Part shown: in pieces, positions 9,225-57,575 of the stretch
Numbering within the stretch: position 1 is the first letter of the stretch
How the letters are laid out: the number at the start of each line of letters is the position of its first letter
Position numbers and translations under genes: made by a program
Notes under the pieces: generated by a model
What the model was told of the DNA's origin: nothing
Databases searched by the model: none
The model's input: only the letters and a program-made list of their open reading frames with translations
Origin: Flexivirga aerilata
GTDB lineage: Bacteria; Actinomycetota; Actinomycetes; Actinomycetales; Dermatophilaceae
Assembly (NCBI RefSeq): GCF_013002715.1
Contig: NZ_JABENB010000001.1
Location: 1,984,001 to 2,048,000 of the forward strand
Direction of reading: 5' to 3'
DNA: 64,000 nt

Positions 9225-10139
9225 TCACGTGTCGTGTCCGGCGGTGTCGTTCGTGGGGGGCGCGTGCGGGTCTGCGGGCGCGTCGTCGTGGGCGCGCGCG
9301 TGCGGGTCTGCGGGTGCGTCGTCGTGGGTGGGGGTGTGCGGGTCTGCGGGTGCGTCGTCGTGGGCGGGCGCGTGCGGGTCTGCGGGTGTGTCGTCGTGGG
9401 CGGGCGCGTGCGGGTTATCGCCGGCGCCTTCGCCGGCGGGCGCGTGCCGGTCCGAGGGCTGTGGGCGATCGGGCGCCACCGCGGCCGCGTGCTCCGACGA
9501 GTTGTCGTGCTCGTGCGACGACGTGTTTCCGGCTGCCGGCGGGCCCTCGATGCCTGCGACGAGCCGGACCTCACGCGCGGTGCGCCCGTCCGCCGAGACC
9601 ACCCGGTCGCGGTAGGCACCGTCGGGTCGCAGCCCGGCCGCCTCGGCGAACGCGCGCGTCGCCTCGTCATCGGCGAGCAGCCACGCGGTTACGCTGGTGA
9701 AGTCACCCGCCCGCAGGGTGTCGACAGCCGCATTGAGCAAGCGCGACCCGTGCCCGCTGCCGCGGTGCGCCGGGTCGACGGCCAGCGCAAAAATTTCGCC
9801 ATCGGTCGTCCCCTGCCCGCGCGTCGTCCCGTCGACAGTGCCCGAGGTCGGTCCCGCACTGTCGGGGTCGGAGTTCGGTCCGATCGCGACGAACCCCACG
9901 ATCGCCTCGCCCTTGCCGTCGAGGTCGCCACCCTCGGTTGCGACCAACAGCCGATGTTGCGGCGTCGGCGCCTGCTGCAGCGAACTCCGCCACCCCTCCT
10001 CGAACGCCTCCGGCCGGAACGTCTCCAGCACCTCGGCGTCCAGCAACGGCGCGTAGGCCTGCCGCCATACCGCCGCCTGGACCTGGCCGACGTCCCGCAG
10101 GTCATCCGGGCGGGCCGTGCGCACGCTGGCATCACTCAT
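9225..10139 (-). CDS. GNAT N-acetyltransferase with His/Asp-rich tandem-repeat tail
   Basis: 304-aa protein. Residues 1-190 form a GNAT fold; the acetyl-CoA-binding motif A is visible as VDPAHRGSGHGSRLL. The acceptor is unknown. After about residue 215 the protein turns into a disordered tail whose last 70 residues hold four and a half copies of a 12-residue unit of the type HAPAHDDAPADP, encoded by a 36-bp tandem repeat. The His and Asp content could bind divalent metals (inference). The ATG at 10139 is used because the longer frame overlaps the divergent reductase gene. The gene is directly upstream of azlCD in the same direction. Confidence 0.8.
   Translation of the reverse strand: MSDASVRTARPDDLRDVGQVQAAVWRQAYAPLLDAEVLETFRPEAFEEGWRSSLQQAPTPQHRLLVATEGGDLDGKGEAIVGFVAIGPNSDPDSAGPTSGTVDGTTRGQGTTDGEIFALAVDPAHRGSGHGSRLLNAAVDTLRAGDFTSVTAWLLADDEATRAFAEAAGLRPDGAYRDRVVSADGRTAREVRLVAGIEGPPAAGNTSSHEHDNSSEHAAAVAPDRPQPSDRHAPAGEGAGDNPHAPAHDDTPADPHAPAHDDAPADPHTPTHDDAPADPHARAHDDAPADPHAPPTNDTAGHDT
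9250..9420. repeat. 36-bp tandem repeat encoding the GNAT tail
   Basis: About 4.5 copies of a 36-bp GC-rich unit containing GCGGGTCTGCGGGTGCGTCG on the plus strand. Copies differ by a few bases. The array is in frame and explains the long spurious open frames on the opposite strand here. Confidence 0.85.
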
Positions 10140-12859: not shown

Positions 12860-13470
12860 TAGCCTGCCGAACGGTGCCGTTCTGGCCGCCGAAATCACTG
12901 CGATGCATGATGATTCGTGGCAGCCGCATGTCGGGATCACTGGCAGATCGGAGCGGCCGTGTTACGGGTCGCCTGGCAGCTCTGGCGACTCGGGTGGCTG
13001 GGCGCGGCCAAGGCCGGCTAGGTATTCGGGCCAGTGCGGCAGCCGAGCGCATCGGGGCGAGCGGGGGAGCTTCCGTCGCCGCCCACCAGACATCTGGTGG
13101 CTCCCCGACGGACGACAGTTGTGGGGCCGAGTCGGGCCGAGCCGTGCGGCCGCCGGCGCCACTTCGACGCTGTCGGGCCGGGGCCAGCTCGCCCCCTGCC
13201 GGGCCGCCGATGTCACCGCGGCCCCCGTCGCGCCGGCGCCACTTCGACGCTGTCGGGCCGGGGCCACCTCGACCCCTGTCGGGCCGCCCTCGCCACCTCG
13301 ACCCTCATCGGGCCGGGCGACCTCGCCCCCCCCGTCGGGCCGTTCACGCCACTTCGACGCTGTCGGGCCGGGGCCAGCTCGCCCCCTGCCGGGCCGACGT
13401 CACCTCGACGTCCCATCGGCCGGCACCAGCTCAACGCCGGCCGGACGCCGCTCGCCGGAGATCAGGATGA
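12860..13470 (+). other. gene-poor region with a leaderless-like start and odd reading frame
   Basis: Between the GH13 gene and the convergent HNH gene lie about 830 bp without a recognisable gene. At 12657-12790 a degraded second copy of the end of the GH13 gene is seen (HGWRAFRGSAR then stop, against HGWGVFQIIAR then stop). At 12860 TAGCCT stands 8 nt before a GTG (12874) that opens a 198-codon frame. Its first 65 codons have unusually low third-position GC and its remainder is the repeat array at 13151-13430. No family was recognised. It may be a decayed gene, a fast-evolving orphan or no gene. Confidence 0.2.
13151..13430. repeat. 26-28-bp degenerate minisatellite
   Basis: Eight units, each ending in (T/C)CGGGCCG or GCCGGGCCG, are spaced mostly 26-28 bp apart. 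Three near-identical longer blocks containing CACTTCGACGCTGTCGGGCC start near 13160, 13240 and 13350. There are no spacers of unrelated sequence, so it is not a CRISPR array. It lies between two convergent genes. Confidence 0.7.
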
Positions 13471-18791: not shown

Positions 18792-19867
18792 CCCAGGTGC
18801 CCGCCACCCCGGGCCAGGCCCCAGACCGTATGCCGGAGCACCCGCCCCAGGCCGACGAACGCGTGAGCAGCACCGGCACGCTGGCCCGCCTGCTCAAGCG
18901 CCCCGAGATGGGCGCCGTGCTCGCGGCGGTCGTCGTACTCGTCTTCTTCTCCGTCACCACCGACGCGTTCTTCACCGCCAGCGGTGCGAGCACCTGGATC
19001 GAGCAGTCCTCGACGATCGGCATCATGGCGGTCGCGGTCGCGCTGCTGATGATCGGCGGCGAGTTCGACCTGTCCGCCGGTGTCATGACCGGCTTCTCCG
19101 CGCTCACCGTCGGCGTGCTCACCACCCACTGGGGCTGGAACGCGTGGCCGGCGATCGTCGTGTCGCTGCTGCTGTGCGCGGGGATCGGCGCGCTCAACGG
19201 ATTCCTGGTGCTGAAGACCGGCCTGCCGAGCTTCATCGTCACCCTCGCCACCTTCTTCGTGCTGCAGGGCATCGACCTGGCGTTGGTGAAGCTGGTGATC
19301 GGGCAGGTCTCGATCCAGGGCTTCAACGGTCTGCCCGGGCAGCGCAGCGCGAGCTGGTTGTTCACGTCCTACGTGTCGATCGGCAACCTCACCCTCTGGT
19401 CGAGCTTCTGGTGGTGGCTGGCGGTGACGGCGGCCGCGACGTTCGTGCTGCTGCGCACCTCGGTCGGCAACTGGATCTTCGCGGTCGGGGGCGCGGTCAC
19501 CTCCGCGCGGCAGGTCGGGGTGCCGGTCTTCCGCACCAAGATCGCGCTCTTCATGGGCACCGCGATCTGCGGCTGGCTGGTCGGCATGCTCAATCTGTTC
19601 CGCTACAACACCGCGCAGAGCTCGGACGGCGTGGGCCTGGAGTTCATCTTCATCATTTGCGCGGTCGTCGGCGGGTGCGTGATGACCGGCGGTTACGGGT
19701 CTGCGGTCGGCGCGGCATTCGGTGCGCTGATCTACGGCATGGTCAACCAGGGCATCCCCTACGAGGGCTGGGACAGCAACTGGCTCTACGCGTTCCTCGG
19801 GGTGATGCTGCTCGCGGCGGTGCTGCTGAACAACTGGGTGAAGACGCGAGCGGAGAATGCGACATGA
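18788..19867 (+). CDS. sugar ABC transporter permease (RbsC-like)
   Basis: 359-aa inner-membrane permease of the BPD_transp_2 family. A 45-residue hydrophilic N-terminus is followed by about nine to ten hydrophobic segments. GGEFDLSAG and the late [22 protein letters not shown] match conserved loops of ribose/xylose permeases. The start overlaps the lipoprotein stop (ATGA at 18788-18791) and its own stop overlaps the ATPase frame. It forms the membrane channel with the ATPase encoded next. Confidence 0.9.
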
Positions 19868-19941
19868 GCGCCGACCGAGCCGAGGACACGAGCGAGGGAC
19901 GAGCGAGGCCCGCAGGCGAGGGCAGAGGCGCGACAGAAAAC
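19864..19941 (+). repeat. 78-bp start-codon junction cassette, dispersed copy
   Basis: Runs from the ATG overlapping the permease stop to just before the second in-frame ATG (19942). It encodes 26 residues of the type [20 protein letters not shown] and is roughly 84 % identical to the copies before kdpB (39920-40162), including the stretch CGAGCGAGGCCCGCAG. It adds a charged N-terminus to the ATPase that homologues would not need. Confidence 0.8.
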
Positions 19942-24133: not shown

Positions 24134-24919
24134 TCAGGCCGGCAGCTGCAGGTGCTGGCCGACGAAGATCAGGTTCGGGTCGTTCACGATGCCCTTGTTG
24201 GCCGCGAACAGAGCCTGCCAACCACCCTTGATCTGGTAGGTCTCGGCGAGCTGGCTCAGCGAGTCGCCGGCCTTCACGGTCAGGGTCTTGCCCGAGAGCG
24301 CAACCTTGGGGGTGGCGGCCTTCGGCGCGACGTAGGTCTTGCGCTCGGTGGAGCGCGAGGTCTGCGGCGCGGTGTAGTTGGACTTCGGCGCAGCCTTCGG
24401 CGCGACGTAAGCCTTCTTCGGCGTGACCTTCGGCGCGACGTAGTTCTTCTTCGGCGTGACCTTCGGCGCGACGTAGGTCTTGCGCTCGGTGGAGCGCGAG
24501 GTCTGCTTCGGAGCCTGGGTCTGGGTCGGCTGCGGCGCGACGACCGGGCTGCCGCCACCACGGGTCAGGCCCGCGCGGACCGAGCACACCGGCCAGGCGC
24601 CGGGACCCTGCGAAGCGAGCACCTTCTCGGCGATCGTGATCTGAGCCGACTTGCTGGCCAGGTTCGCGTTCGGCGCGTAGGCGCCGCCGCCGTAACCGAT
24701 CCAGGTGGAGTGCGTGAACTGCAGACCACCGTAGAAGCCGTTGCCGGTGTTGATCGACCAGTTGCCACCGCTCTCGCAGGCAGCGACGCGGTCCCAGGTC
24801 GAGACCGACGCAGCCTTGGCGGTGCCGGCGTTCGCGAAGCCTGCACCGACGACCGCTGCGCCGGCAACCCCGATGCCGACGATGCGGGTCTTGGTCGAGA
24901 TGTTCGAGCTGAGGTTCAT
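24134..24919 (-). CDS. rpf: resuscitation-promoting factor-like muralytic protein with LysM domain
   Basis: 261-aa secreted cell-wall enzyme. A signal peptide (residues 1-about 38, ending AKA) leads into an Rpf/transglycosylase-like domain (about 40-115): TWDRVAACESGGNW contains the catalytic Glu, and YGGLQFTHSTW and ITIAEKVLASQG follow. A Pro/Lys repeat linker of YVAPKVTPKK units (about 140-205) connects to a C-terminal LysM (LTVKAGDSLSQLAE to FVGQHLQLPA) that binds peptidoglycan. Such proteins cleave peptidoglycan during growth and resuscitation. ATG 24919 has AGGAGAGG 6 nt upstream; an in-frame ATG eight codons earlier lies in the riboswitch. The long leader holds a c-di-AMP riboswitch. 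Confidence 0.93.
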   Translation of the reverse strand: MNLSSNISTKTRIVGIGVAGAAVVGAGFANAGTAKAASVSTWDRVAACESGGNWSINTGNGFYGGLQFTHSTWIGYGGGAYAPNANLASKSAQITIAEKVLASQGPGAWPVCSVRAGLTRGGGSPVVAPQPTQTQAPKQTSRSTERKTYVAPKVTPKKNYVAPKVTPKKAYVAPKAAPKSNYTAPQTSRSTERKTYVAPKAATPKVALSGKTLTVKAGDSLSQLAETYQIKGGWQALFAANKGIVNDPNLIFVGQHLQLPA

Positions 24920-37906: not shown

Positions 37907-39919
37907 TCACATCCCGGGGAGGAACTGGATAACGAGGTCGATGAGCTTGATCCCGACGAACGGCACGATCACGCCGCCCAGTCCGTAGATCAGCAGGTTG
38001 CGCGTGAGCAGCTGGTCTGCCCGCAACGGGCGGTAGCGAACTCCCTTGAGCGACAACGGGATCAACGCCACGATGATCAGCGCGTTGAAGATGACCGCCG
38101 ACAGGATCGCCGAGTTGGACGAGTGCAGCCGCATGATGTTGAGCCCGTCGAGGCCCGGGTAGATCGCCACGAACATCGCGGGAATGATCGCGAAGTACTT
38201 CGCCAGGTCGTTGGCGATCGAGAAGGTCGTGAGCGCGCCACGGGTGATCAGCAGCTGCTTGCCGATGCCGACGATGTCGATCAGCTTGGTCGGGTTGGAG
38301 TCGAGGTCGACCATGTTGCCGGCCTCCTTCGCCGCCGAGGTGCCGGTGTTCATCGCCACGCCGACGTCGGCCTGCGCGAGCGCGGGTGCGTCGTTGGTGC
38401 CGTCGCCGGTCATCGCGACCAGCCGGCCGCCCTCCTGCTCGGTCCGGATGAGGCGCATCTTGTCCTCGGGCGTCGCCTCCGCGAGGAAGTCGTCGACTCC
38501 CGCCTCGTCGGCAATCGCCTTGGCGGTCAACGGATTGTCGCCGGTGATCATCACCGTGCGGATGCCCATCTGCCGCAGCTGCGCGAAGCGTTCGACCATG
38601 CCGGGCTTGATCACGTCCTTCAGATGTATGACGCCGACCGCGTCCGTCACGCCGCCCTCGCGGCCGATGGACACCACCAGCGGCGTGCCGCCGTCGGCGG
38701 ACACCCGGTCGGCGATCGCCATCGCCTCGTCCGCGCCGGCGCCGCCGGACTCGCGCACCAGACGGCACACCGAACCGGCTGCGCCCTTGCGCAACTGCGT
38801 CCCGTCGGCGAGGTCCACGCCGCTCATCCGGGTCTGCGCGGTGAACGGCACGACCGTCGCGCCGGCAGGCGAATCGTGATCTTTGCCAAGGTGGTTCGCG
38901 GTCCAGTCGACGATCGACCGCCCCTCCGGGGTCTCGTCGGCCAGCGACGACAGGTGTGCCAGGCGGTGCACCTCGCTCGCCTCGCCGTCCCCGACCACGA
39001 TGATGTCGGCGGCCTGCCGGTTGCCGAGCGTGATCGTGCCGGTCTTGTCCAGCAGCAGCGTGGACACGTCACCGGCGGCCTCGACCGCGCGGCCGGACAT
39101 CGCGAGCACGTTGCGCTGCACGAGCCGGTCCATCCCGGCGATGCCGATCGCCGACAGCAGGGCACCGATGGTGGTCGGGATGAGGCAGACCAGCAGCGCG
39201 ACGAGCACCAGCACGCTGGGCTTCGGGCCGTTCCAGCCGGCGAGCGACGGGATGGTCGCGACCGCCAGCAGGAAGATGATCGTGAGCACCGTCAGCAGGA
39301 TGCCGAGCGCGATCTCGTTGGGGGTCTTCTGCCGTTCGGCGCCCTCGACGAGGGAGATCATCCGGTCGATGAAGGTCTCGCCGGGCTTGGCGGTGATGCG
39401 CACCACGATCCGGTCCGACAGCACGGTCGTGCCGCCGGTGACGGCGCACCGGTCACCGCCGGCCTCCCGGACCACCGGGGCGGATTCGCCGGTGATCGCG
39501 GACTCGTCGACGGTCGCGATGCCCTCGACGACGTCACCGTCGCCCGGGATCACCTGGCCGGCCTCGATGACCACCCGGTCGTCCAGCTTCAGCTCCGCGG
39601 CCGGCACCTGCTCCTCGCCCCCGCCATACGTGATGCGACGGGCGGTGGTGGTCGAGCGGGTCTTGCGCAACGTGTCCGCCTGCGCCTTGCCGCGGCCCTC
39701 GGCGACGGACTCGGCGAGGTTGGCGAACAGGACCGTCGCCCACAGCCAGATCGCGACCAGGACCGAGAACCACGACGGGTGGATGCAGGCCAGGACGGTG
39801 GTCAGGACGGCGCTGATCCAGACCACGAAGAGCACCGGCTGGCGCACGAGGTGCCGCGGATCGGCCTTGCGCAGCGCGCCGGGCAACGACTCGACGGCCT
39901 GGTGGGTGAGAGTCGACAT
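37907..39919 (-). CDS. kdpB: potassium-transporting P-type ATPase catalytic subunit KdpB
   Basis: 670-aa ATPase driving K+ uptake through KdpA. The phosphorylated Asp is in DKTGTITLG; the actuator loop is ITGESAPV; the hinge motif [16 protein letters not shown] is complete. The membrane segments and the C-terminal [16 protein letters not shown] are intact. The native start is taken as ATG 39919 ([20 protein letters not shown]), where family members begin. The frame stays open upstream through three more ATG codons at 40006, 40084 and 40162, because repeated junction cassettes lie between kdpA and kdpB. Starting at 40162 would give a 751-aa protein with a highly charged N-terminus. Confidence 0.93.
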
Positions 39920-40162
39920 GGTGTTGCTGCTCGTTTCTTCGTCCAAGATGGCGGGCCTGGTTCGTTCTGCCTCGACTGCGGGCCTCGCTCGTTCCTCCGA
40001 TTTCATGAGGTTGCTCGTGCCTCTTTCCTCGACTGCGGGCCTCGCTCGTTCCTCGCTCGTGTCCTCGTCTCGGTCGGCACTCATGGTGTTGTTCGTGCCT
40101 CTTTCCTCGACTGCGGGCCTCGCTCGTTCCTCGCTCGTGTCCTCGTCTCGGTCGGCACTCAT
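39920..40162 (-). repeat. tandem start-codon junction cassettes between kdpA and kdpB
   Basis: Two nearly identical 78-bp units (40162-40085 and 40084-40007), each of 26 codons beginning [20 protein letters not shown]. An 87-bp shorter relative follows (40006-39920) that keeps the core GAGGAACGAGCGAGGCCCGC. Each unit begins with ATG, has no stop in frame and ends at the next ATG. The first ATG overlaps the kdpA stop (ATGA). The units are purine-rich on the coding strand, with GAGGAAAGAGG 13 nt before the following ATG. A diverged copy is at 19864-19941. Confidence 0.9.
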
Positions 40163-41805
40163 GAGAGCGCCTCCGCGAGCGGGCCGAGCGCCAGCGGGGG
40201 CAGGAAGGTCAATCCGGTGACCAGCAACGCCACGCCGACCATCAGGCCGGAGAAGAGCGGGGTGTGGGTGGGCATGGTGCCCTCGGTGGTGGGTCGCCGG
40301 CGCTGCGTCGCGAACGCCCCGGCCAGGGCGAGCACCAGAAACATCGGCAGGAACCGGCCGATCAGCATGCACGCGCCAAGGGTCAGGTTGAGGTAGGGCT
40401 GATCGGCGGTGAGGCCGGCGAACGCCGAGCCGTTGTTGTTCGAGGCCGACGCGTAGGCGTAGAACATCTCGGACAACCCGTGCGGGCCGGTCGCGAGCAG
40501 ACCCGCCTTGGCCGTGCCCACCGTCAGCGCGGCGGCGGTGCCGACGAGCACCAGCGCCGGAGTCACGATCGTGTAGAGCGCGGCATACGTGATTTCCTTG
40601 CGCCCCACCTGTTTTCCGAGGATCTCCGGGGTGCGCCCGACCATCAGGCCGGCGATGAACACCGCGAGGATCGCGACGACGAGTGCGCCATAGAGGCCGG
40701 AGCCGACGCCACCGGGGGTGATCTCACCGAGCAGCATGTTGGTGAGCGCGCCGCCCCCGCCGATGGGGCTGTAGGACTCGTGCATCGAGTTGACGGCGCC
40801 GGTCGAGGTCGCGGTCGTGGAGTTGGCGAAGAGCGCCGACGCCCAGACCCCGAACCGCACCTCCTTGCCCTCCATCGCGCCGGTCGGCGCCGTCGACGCC
40901 GCCTGCTCGGCCCAGGTGATGACCACGAGCATCGCGGCCCAGAGGAAGGCCATGAACCCGGCGACGGCGTAGCCCTGCCGCGTGTCGCCGACCATTCGGC
41001 CGTAGGTGCGCGGCAGCGAGAACGGGATGACGAGGATCAGGAGGATCTCGACCAGGTTGGTGAACGCGTTGGGGTTTTCGAAGGGGTGCGCGGAGTTGGC
41101 GTTGAAGTAACCGCCGCCGTTGGTGCCGAGCTCCTTGATCGCCTCCTGGCTCGCGACCAGCCCGCTCTCGATCGTCTGGTGACCGCCGCCGAGCGTGCTG
41201 ATCGTCTGCGGTGCCGACAGGTCCTGTATGACGCCGCCCGCGAGCAGCACCACGGCGCCGGCGAACGCGATCGGCAGCAGCACCCGCACGACGGCCCGCG
41301 TCAGGTCGACCCAGAAGTTGCCGACCGTGCCGGTGTGCCGGGCGGCCAGGCCGCGGATCAGCGCGACGGCGACGGCGAGGCCGACCGCGGCGGAGACGAA
41401 GTTCTGCACCGCGAGGCCGAGCGTCTGCACGAGCGCGCTCGCCCCGGACTCCCCGGCGTAGCTCTGCCAGTTGGTGTTGGTGACGAACGAGATCGAGGTG
41501 TTCACCGCGGTGTGCCAGTCCATCGATGCCCCGCGCGCGAGCGGCAGGTGCTGCTGCAGCATGAGCAGCGCCCCGAGGAAGACCAGGCTGACCACCGAGA
41601 ACGCGCCGACCGACACGGCATACCGGCTCCACCGTTGCCCCGACCGCGGGTCGATCCCGCAGAGCCGGTAGAACGCCCGCTCGACGGCGAGGTCCCGATC
41701 GGTGGTGAAGACCCGCGCCAGGTAGTCGCCGAGCGGCACGTGCACCGCGGCGAGCGCGATGACGAGGACTGCGATGGTCAGCAACCCGCTGACGTCCTCG
41801 CTCAT
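40159..41805 (-). CDS. kdpA: potassium-transporting ATPase subunit KdpA
   Basis: 548-aa K+-channel-like subunit of KdpFABC, about ten membrane helices. Conserved pore regions are visible: [37 protein letters not shown], and the late [13 protein letters not shown]. The stop overlaps the first junction cassette (ATGA at 40159-40162) and the start overlaps the kdpF stop by one base (TGATG). Confidence 0.96.
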
Positions 41806-57390: not shown

Positions 57391-57446
57391 GTAGCACTAG
57401 CTTCGCACCGAGCACCGACAGCCGCTCCATCCCGTATGACGGCCGG

Positions 57447-57575
57447 GGCTGGGGCGTGCAGAAGTCGCGACGGTCGCGGGGTATGCACGCGGAACCGGGC
57501 TGGGGCGTGCACAAGTCGCGACGGTTGCGGGCTGTGCACGCGGATGGTTGCGGGTTGTGCGCGGGCGCGATGCGA
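57447..57575. repeat. 51-bp tandem repeat in the lhr/DUF3046 divergent region
   Basis: Two copies start at 57447 and 57498 with GGCTGGGGCGTGCA; each includes AAGTCGCGACGGT and TGCACGCGGA. A partial third copy (GGTTGCGGGTTGTGC) follows. The self-complementary GTCGCGAC core could be a protein site; no known operator was recognised. Confidence 0.7.

Follow-up and report, generated by a model that had tools for sequence, protein, structure and literature searches.

Short hairpin repeats at stop/start overlaps of actinobacterial gene pairs, mostly fused in frame to the downstream gene

The kdpA and kdpB genes of Flexivirga aerilata are separated by a tandem array of short cassettes. Related cassettes are dispersed over this genome and its relatives, where most lie in the DTGA overlap between the stop of one gene and the start of the next and keep the downstream gene in frame, and in a sister species several of the same junctions are empty. 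We consider it probable that the cassettes are short, non-autonomous, hairpin-bearing interspersed repeats similar to the MIRUs of mycobacteria, which copy into DTGA overlaps and are tolerated because coupling and frame are left intact. MIRUs have been used in strain typing for decades. With a second family that has many empty sites in sister species, two frame solutions and a covarying hairpin, the DTGA rule, the fold and the model of translation can be tested in harmless bacteria. The family also carries a warning for annotation, as the starts and N-termini given for KdpB, NuoD, HemQ, ArgD and further proteins of these bacteria can hold 22–28 element-derived residues per unit.

In the window (the whole stretch of 64,000 nucleotides that was analysed), the array runs from 40162 to 39920 on the minus strand and consists of units of 78, 78 and 87 bp (Table 1). 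Coordinates, open reading frames and TRF (period 78, 2.1 copies, 94% matches, score 305) all agree with the preliminary description of these in-frame ATG units. Every unit can be read without a stop from its initial ATG up to the ATG that follows it, and the kdpA stop overlaps the first of these starts as ATGA. Unit 2 differs from unit 1 at three positions, all within the final 8 bases. Translation from the first cassette ATG would add 81 residues to KdpB. Pfam supports KdpA (PF03814) and, in KdpB, the P-type ATPase domains; the nearest named relatives of KdpB are from Intrasporangiaceae (Tetrasphaera MAG, 74%; Phycicoccus jejuensis, 73%). A riboswitch or other known RNA family at the junction was discarded, as Rfam gave no match up to E 1 across 39700–40400. 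The same genome has two more KdpB-like matches (C3:188922–189887, 57%; C3:194126–195094, 73%), and the window has further tandem repeats at 9246–9415 (36 bp), 13151–13316 (80 bp), 24383–24481 (33 bp) and 57446–57544 (51 bp).

Table 1. Cassettes and neighbouring genes with their coordinates (window positions unless a locus is given).
Feature	Position	Strand	Evidence and remarks
kdpA	40159..41805	-	ORF; Pfam KdpA 2.1e-218; TGA 40161-40159 forms ATGA with first cassette ATG
Cassette unit 1, 78 bp, ATG entry start	40085..40162	-	Hairpin core 40162-40093; covariance model R1, 76 bits
Cassette unit 2, 78 bp	40007..40084	-	Hairpin core 40084-40015; R1, 76 bits
Unit 3, 87 bp, diverged composite, in frame	39920..40006	-	No R1 match
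kdpB from the ATG following the cassettes (39919)	37907..39919	-	ORF, Pfam
kdpB read from first cassette ATG, 751 aa (candidate start)	37907..40162	-	Translation
Second window copy, one 78-bp unit	19864..19941	+	Hairpin core 19864-19933; R1, 69.9 bits
Copy in valine-tRNA ligase gene (ValS), genome G027	L185:2051-2114	-	In frame within the gene, no DTGA

The cassette is dispersed, as had been proposed: this genome (G000) has 15 sites, of which 12 show a clear 5′ end and the other three are relics (L156, L157 and L162; L157 is weak, with an R1 score of 17.7 bits). The second copy in the window separates an ABC permease gene (TGA 19865–19867) from an ABC ATPase gene (ATG 19942), both named from their sequence. 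The remaining sites are an ABC exporter pair (2 units), nuoC-nuoD, hemG-hemQ, argB-argD, a cysH-like-cysC pair, a pseudouridine-synthase-like gene paired with a prephenate dehydrogenase gene, a DUF881 gene, a livH-livM-like pair, a MarR gene (2 units) and an efeO-efeB-like pair whose copy is rearranged; the downstream genes that were tested were named through Pfam and the others read from sequence. Across the whole genome, a 20-bp core with up to 3 mismatches gave 9 matches against 1 for the reversed-pattern control, and the 5′ module gave 16 against 0. The preliminary description had staked its idea on the number and position of further copies, and what we found was the opposite of no more copies or of copies equally frequent away from junctions: further copies exist, and they are mostly junctional.

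One 84-base unit served as a BLAST-type query, with up to 15 candidates scored in each genome. At E ≤ 0.01, at least 22 of the 58 genomes gave a match. At E ≤ 1e-8 matches occurred in at least 13 of 36 host-family genomes, and among the 22 genomes of other families no listed match was below E 0.006. The 5′-module pattern with up to 3 mismatches was found in 73 of 149 host-family genomes, many by a single weak match, and the reversed control gave 3 matches in total. The richest genomes by this measure were G106 (26), G000 (16), G058 (15), G027 and G075 (11 each) and G008 (10). When the whole class was scanned and up to 2 mismatches were allowed, 5 of 296 genomes matched; the three outside the host family had 4 scattered matches versus 1 in the control. 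Taken together, these searches show the cassette to be essentially confined to its host actinobacterial family. Three contigs (G106:C9, G058:C27 and G058:C331) stop inside or just past cassette arrays, so copies may be undercounted in draft assemblies.

We searched 95 loci of G000 and its relatives with nhmmer and recovered 125 units in 90 loci. They form 93 arrays of 1–5 units; 78 of these kept their 5′ end and were retained, and the 15 that lacked it were dropped. Units are 72–81 bp long, and intact neighbouring units have periods of 72, 78 or 81 bp, to which more distant copies add 71, 80 and 83. The first TGA coincides exactly with the stop codon of a long, high-GC3 ORF upstream in 55 of the 78 arrays and falls within 6 nt of such a stop in 8 more, which agrees with the ATGA-type placement noted from the kdp array. 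The first base is A in 43 arrays, G in 25, C in 6 and T in 4, and A, G or T precedes the TGA in 53 of the 55 exact cases. The other 15 arrays are away from any upstream stop by this criterion: L189 is counted here because of the GC3 cut-off alone, L149 precedes a MarR gene and has no codirectional gene upstream, the copies in L170 and L175 are read through at the end of the upstream gene, and the ValS copy of G027 has no DTGA. All cassettes at examined junctions are on the coding strand.

The downstream proteins of the arrays fall into 66 distinct clusters, 56 of them with a clear downstream frame. The cassette is in phase 0, that is, fused to the downstream gene, in 46 of the 56 (P 8e-14 against an expectation of one third), so that the N-terminus can be extended, as the preliminary description had suggested for KdpB. 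Phase 2 was found in 8 clusters and phase 1 in 2. In 6 of the 8 phase-2 clusters a mini-ORF closes on an ATGA shared with the downstream start, and no such closure was found in the other two (L193 and L200). One unit (L249) has an in-frame TGA. Three units of G106 (L243, L248 and L250) have 94-nt cores with a nested palindromic insert, GGGTCCCACGCTC.GCGTGGGC, and similar inserts occur in L239, L242 and L244; the 94-nt core corresponds to the 73-nt type plus 21 nt and thus keeps the frame. The best sign from sequence that the cassette frame is translated is the ValS copy of G027. The gene that holds it is the sole full-length valine-tRNA ligase match in that genome (NCBIfam NF000540, 1406 bits), and the gene is without a cassette in 7 of 7 relatives read.

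Comparison with relatives, above all with the sister species G004, revealed empty sites of the kind that had been predicted. Three junctions that are filled in G000 are empty in G004, namely nuoC-nuoD (tacaaGTGACC), hemG-hemQ (ggcATGAGCGACGACCAGCG) and argB-argD (a plain ATGAGCGCG start). Covariance model R1 detected the cassette in L304, L334 and L364 and detected none in the matching L305, L335 and L365. The nuoC-nuoD site is filled in G000, G001 and G007 and empty in G002, G003, G004 and G008; the hemQ site is filled in G000 and G008, and the argD site in G000 and G106 among 20 genomes. Among 97 loci searched (80 named and 17 from relatives), the kdp cassette is present in G000 (2 R1 matches) and G004 (1) only. 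Its array is 78+78+87 bp long in G000 versus 78+39 bp in G004, as anticipated for tandem amplification. No target duplication was seen, which we counted against the mobile-element explanation. At nuoC-nuoD of G011 (L344) and argB-argD of G021 (L375), in two other genera, a similar junction holds an unlike insert, CCCCAC.AAGTTCTTC...ACTTCGCGGGGACCCC, perhaps from a second junction-seeking repeat family.

The cassettes share a hairpin whose stems covary, a feature that the preliminary description had missed, as it had the mini-ORF alternative and the ValS copy. A GCGCC/GGCGC terminal stem begins directly after the DTGA and is followed by G.A-rich internal loops and inner stems, and the 3′ foot, AGAGG, leads into ATGAGC. 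For pair counts we set aside 16 of the 78 units, in which no 3′ stem could be recognised, and took, from the other 62, those of lengths 64, 70 and 73, that is, 52 units with 50 distinct arm pairs; these rows are related and their kinship is uncorrected. In them 95.5% of cells are paired, compared with 87.6% after shuffling of the 3′ letters and no more than 45% after sliding. Changes on both sides of a pair account for 38 cells versus 13.5 in shuffles, and none of 500 shuffles of these related arm pairs matches the observed pairing and double changes. Pair 17–29 illustrates the pattern (GC 29, CG 10, UA 6, AU 2, unpaired 3); pair 16–30 is unpaired in 14 of 50. The short units (n = 24) have an apex stem of GC/GC or AU/GC, a GNA triloop in all 24 (GCA in 16, GAA in 8) and GA/GA internal loops in 14 and 21 of the 24. 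RNAalifold, unaided, predicted the same fold. In single-sequence folding, the two 78-bp units adopt one shape (z −2.6 and −2.4) and one 72-bp unit has ordinary stability (z −0.15); DNA folding parameters gave no clear preference for the hairpin strand.

The GAGG stretches had been read as Shine-Dalgarno-like. These repeats (GAGG/GCGAGG) are largely accounted for by the G.A-loop hairpin, but the last one, AGAGG, can in addition pair with the anti-Shine-Dalgarno; it is half buried in the stem, which holds its GG. Median anti-Shine-Dalgarno pairing is −7.2 kcal/mol at the entry start, −5.8 at the exit start and −3.0 in the background, and the entry site is the stronger of the two in 32 of 51 cases and the weaker in 18 (P 0.05).

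From placement, frame and fold we infer the following course of events. The element would be copied by an enzyme, probably as a folded single strand, into the DTGA overlaps of translationally coupled genes, and the new unit would start with the upstream gene's TGA inside the overlap. The native Shine-Dalgarno would remain within the upstream gene, and a ribosome ending at the TGA could for this reason restart at the DTG. It would then read the cassette into the next gene and add 22–28 residues per unit. Where the length is 2 mod 3, it would instead terminate at a second ATGA and start once more, as at MIRUs. Because the GG of AGAGG is held in the stem, the exit start would open only on ribosome passage. 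Units would multiply in tandem after insertion.

A different explanation is that the cassette is a domesticated regulatory device: selection would maintain the hairpin, operon by operon, as a means of tying the second gene strictly to translation of the first, and mobility would belong only to its history. The operons concerned fit this, as they encode subunits or pathway partners (kdpA-kdpB, nuoC-nuoD, argB-argD, cysH-like-cysC); so do the burial of half of the AGAGG foot in the stem and the presence of the nuoC-nuoD cassette in three genomes (G000, G001 and G007). However, most sites vary between close relatives, the sister species being empty at nuoC-nuoD, hemG-hemQ and argB-argD, and 5′-module matches number 16 in G000 versus 3 in G004. 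A needed device is not expected to come and go in this way, and we regard this explanation as unlikely.

Still less likely is a mobile protein module, in which a useful N-terminal peptide is shuffled among genes. Frame preservation in 46 of 56 clusters and the likeness of the cassette peptides (MSADR.EDTSE...) speak for it, but the mini-ORF copies yield no fusion, and the double changes are explained by base pairing rather than by the peptide. Nor did pN/pS give clear evidence of purifying selection on the peptide: it is 0.86 for the 72-bp type and 0.97 for the 78-bp type, close to 1 and without advantage over the other frames. The value of 0.51 for the 81-bp type comes from 6 pairs only, and the calculation omitted 13 of 49 units because their lengths differed. 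A useful peptide is thus unsupported, and the cassette peptide is not visibly under selection and may be neutral. A purely local origin, by slippage or duplication at the kdpB start and without a mobile element, is very improbable. Given the near identity of kdp units 1 and 2, slippage or unequal exchange can explain copy number at a single site and possibly the tandem step, but near-identical units at unrelated junctions in G000 and in other genera rule it out as the origin of the unit.

The mobile, hairpin-bearing repeat that we favour has a close counterpart. The preliminary description knew of no described element of this kind, and here it has to be revised: according to a review, MIRUs are seemingly mobile, start codons are where they insert, and their ORF is coupled at −4 nt (PMC12548453). 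Two further sources give a MIRU unit size of about 40–100 bp (PMC2734929) and units of 53 and 77 bp at senX3-regX3 (PMC4213456). The MIRU kind itself is thus known; what the cassettes add is a family found outside mycobacteria, the predominance of fusion and a hairpin with covarying stems. In the literature covered, from which most subscription journals were missing and where absence is therefore unproven, we found no description of such elements outside mycobacteria and none of MIRU hairpins.

We searched 10 mycobacterial genomes with a MIRU core and obtained 62 matches in 6 of them (control, 0), of which 30 loci were studied. A DTGA-to-DTGA mini-ORF of the DDAERSDEEERR type is present in 11, another 11 have no DTGA within 26 nt upstream, and 8 are otherwise arranged. 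MIRUs and cassettes are alike in being short, dispersed, tandem units at stop/start overlaps, with an ORF entered at the upstream stop; for the cassettes this is borne out by the exact DTGA placement in 55 of 78 arrays and the variable copy number at kdp in G000 versus G004. They differ in frame. MIRU units are 2 mod 3, with a mini-ORF that closes on the next DTGA, whereas cassettes are mostly 0 mod 3 and fused (46 of 56), and the −4 coupled mini-ORF is seen in 6 of 56 clusters, which close on ATGA. The cassette stem also begins immediately after the DTGA, unlike that of MIRUs.

In hairpin plan, MIRUs resemble the short cassette type: they have a GCGCC/GGCGC-type terminal stem, GA/GA loops in 28 and 25 of 29 rows and a GNA triloop in 27 of 29. 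Pairing is 94.0% in all 32 MIRU copies, which are not independent, and 96.0% in 29 rows after 3 copies that fit the register badly were left out; in these 29 rows three pairs have double changes, a result reached by none of 500 shuffles. Direct sequence homology was not established. A sequence-only model of the cassette found no MIRU, local alignments were no better than shuffles (P 0.08–0.78), and the 17 of 30 MIRUs that scored in nhmmer were each beaten by 1–15% of their own shuffles. With R1, which was built on short cassettes only, the top 5 matches in 90 kb were MIRUs, with weak scores of 12.2–17.4 bits (E 0.15–2.1) against up to 16.3 bits in 481 kb of unrelated actinobacterial DNA, and 25 of the 30 MIRUs were missed. 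The shared hairpin plan suggests that cassettes and MIRUs are of one class and may be of common descent. More tentatively, they might be two branches of one actinobacterial class of mobile hairpins in which the fold is conserved and the sequence is not. Both branches would have a GCGCC/GGCGC stem placed on the overlap, G.A mismatches in tandem and, at the apex, a GNA cap resembling that of d(GCGAAGC); they would move as folded single-stranded DNA and be rendered harmless by fusion in the cassettes and by a coupled mini-ORF in MIRUs. The d(GCGAAGC) sequence is described as an extraordinarily stable DNA hairpin (PMC6582339).

REPINs and REP sequences are likewise short hairpin repeats, for which movement in the form of a folded single strand has been suggested (PMC3116915). 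REPINs, which are associated with RAYT transposases, are extragenic inverted doublets, whereas the cassettes are single hairpins that lie in frame at coding junctions and, at the junctions examined, on the coding strand. The palindromic elements of Rickettsia are small repeats inserted in frame within genes. The ValS copy of G027 is like them in its in-frame insertion, but the Rickettsia elements lie within ORFs and the cassettes at stop/start overlaps.
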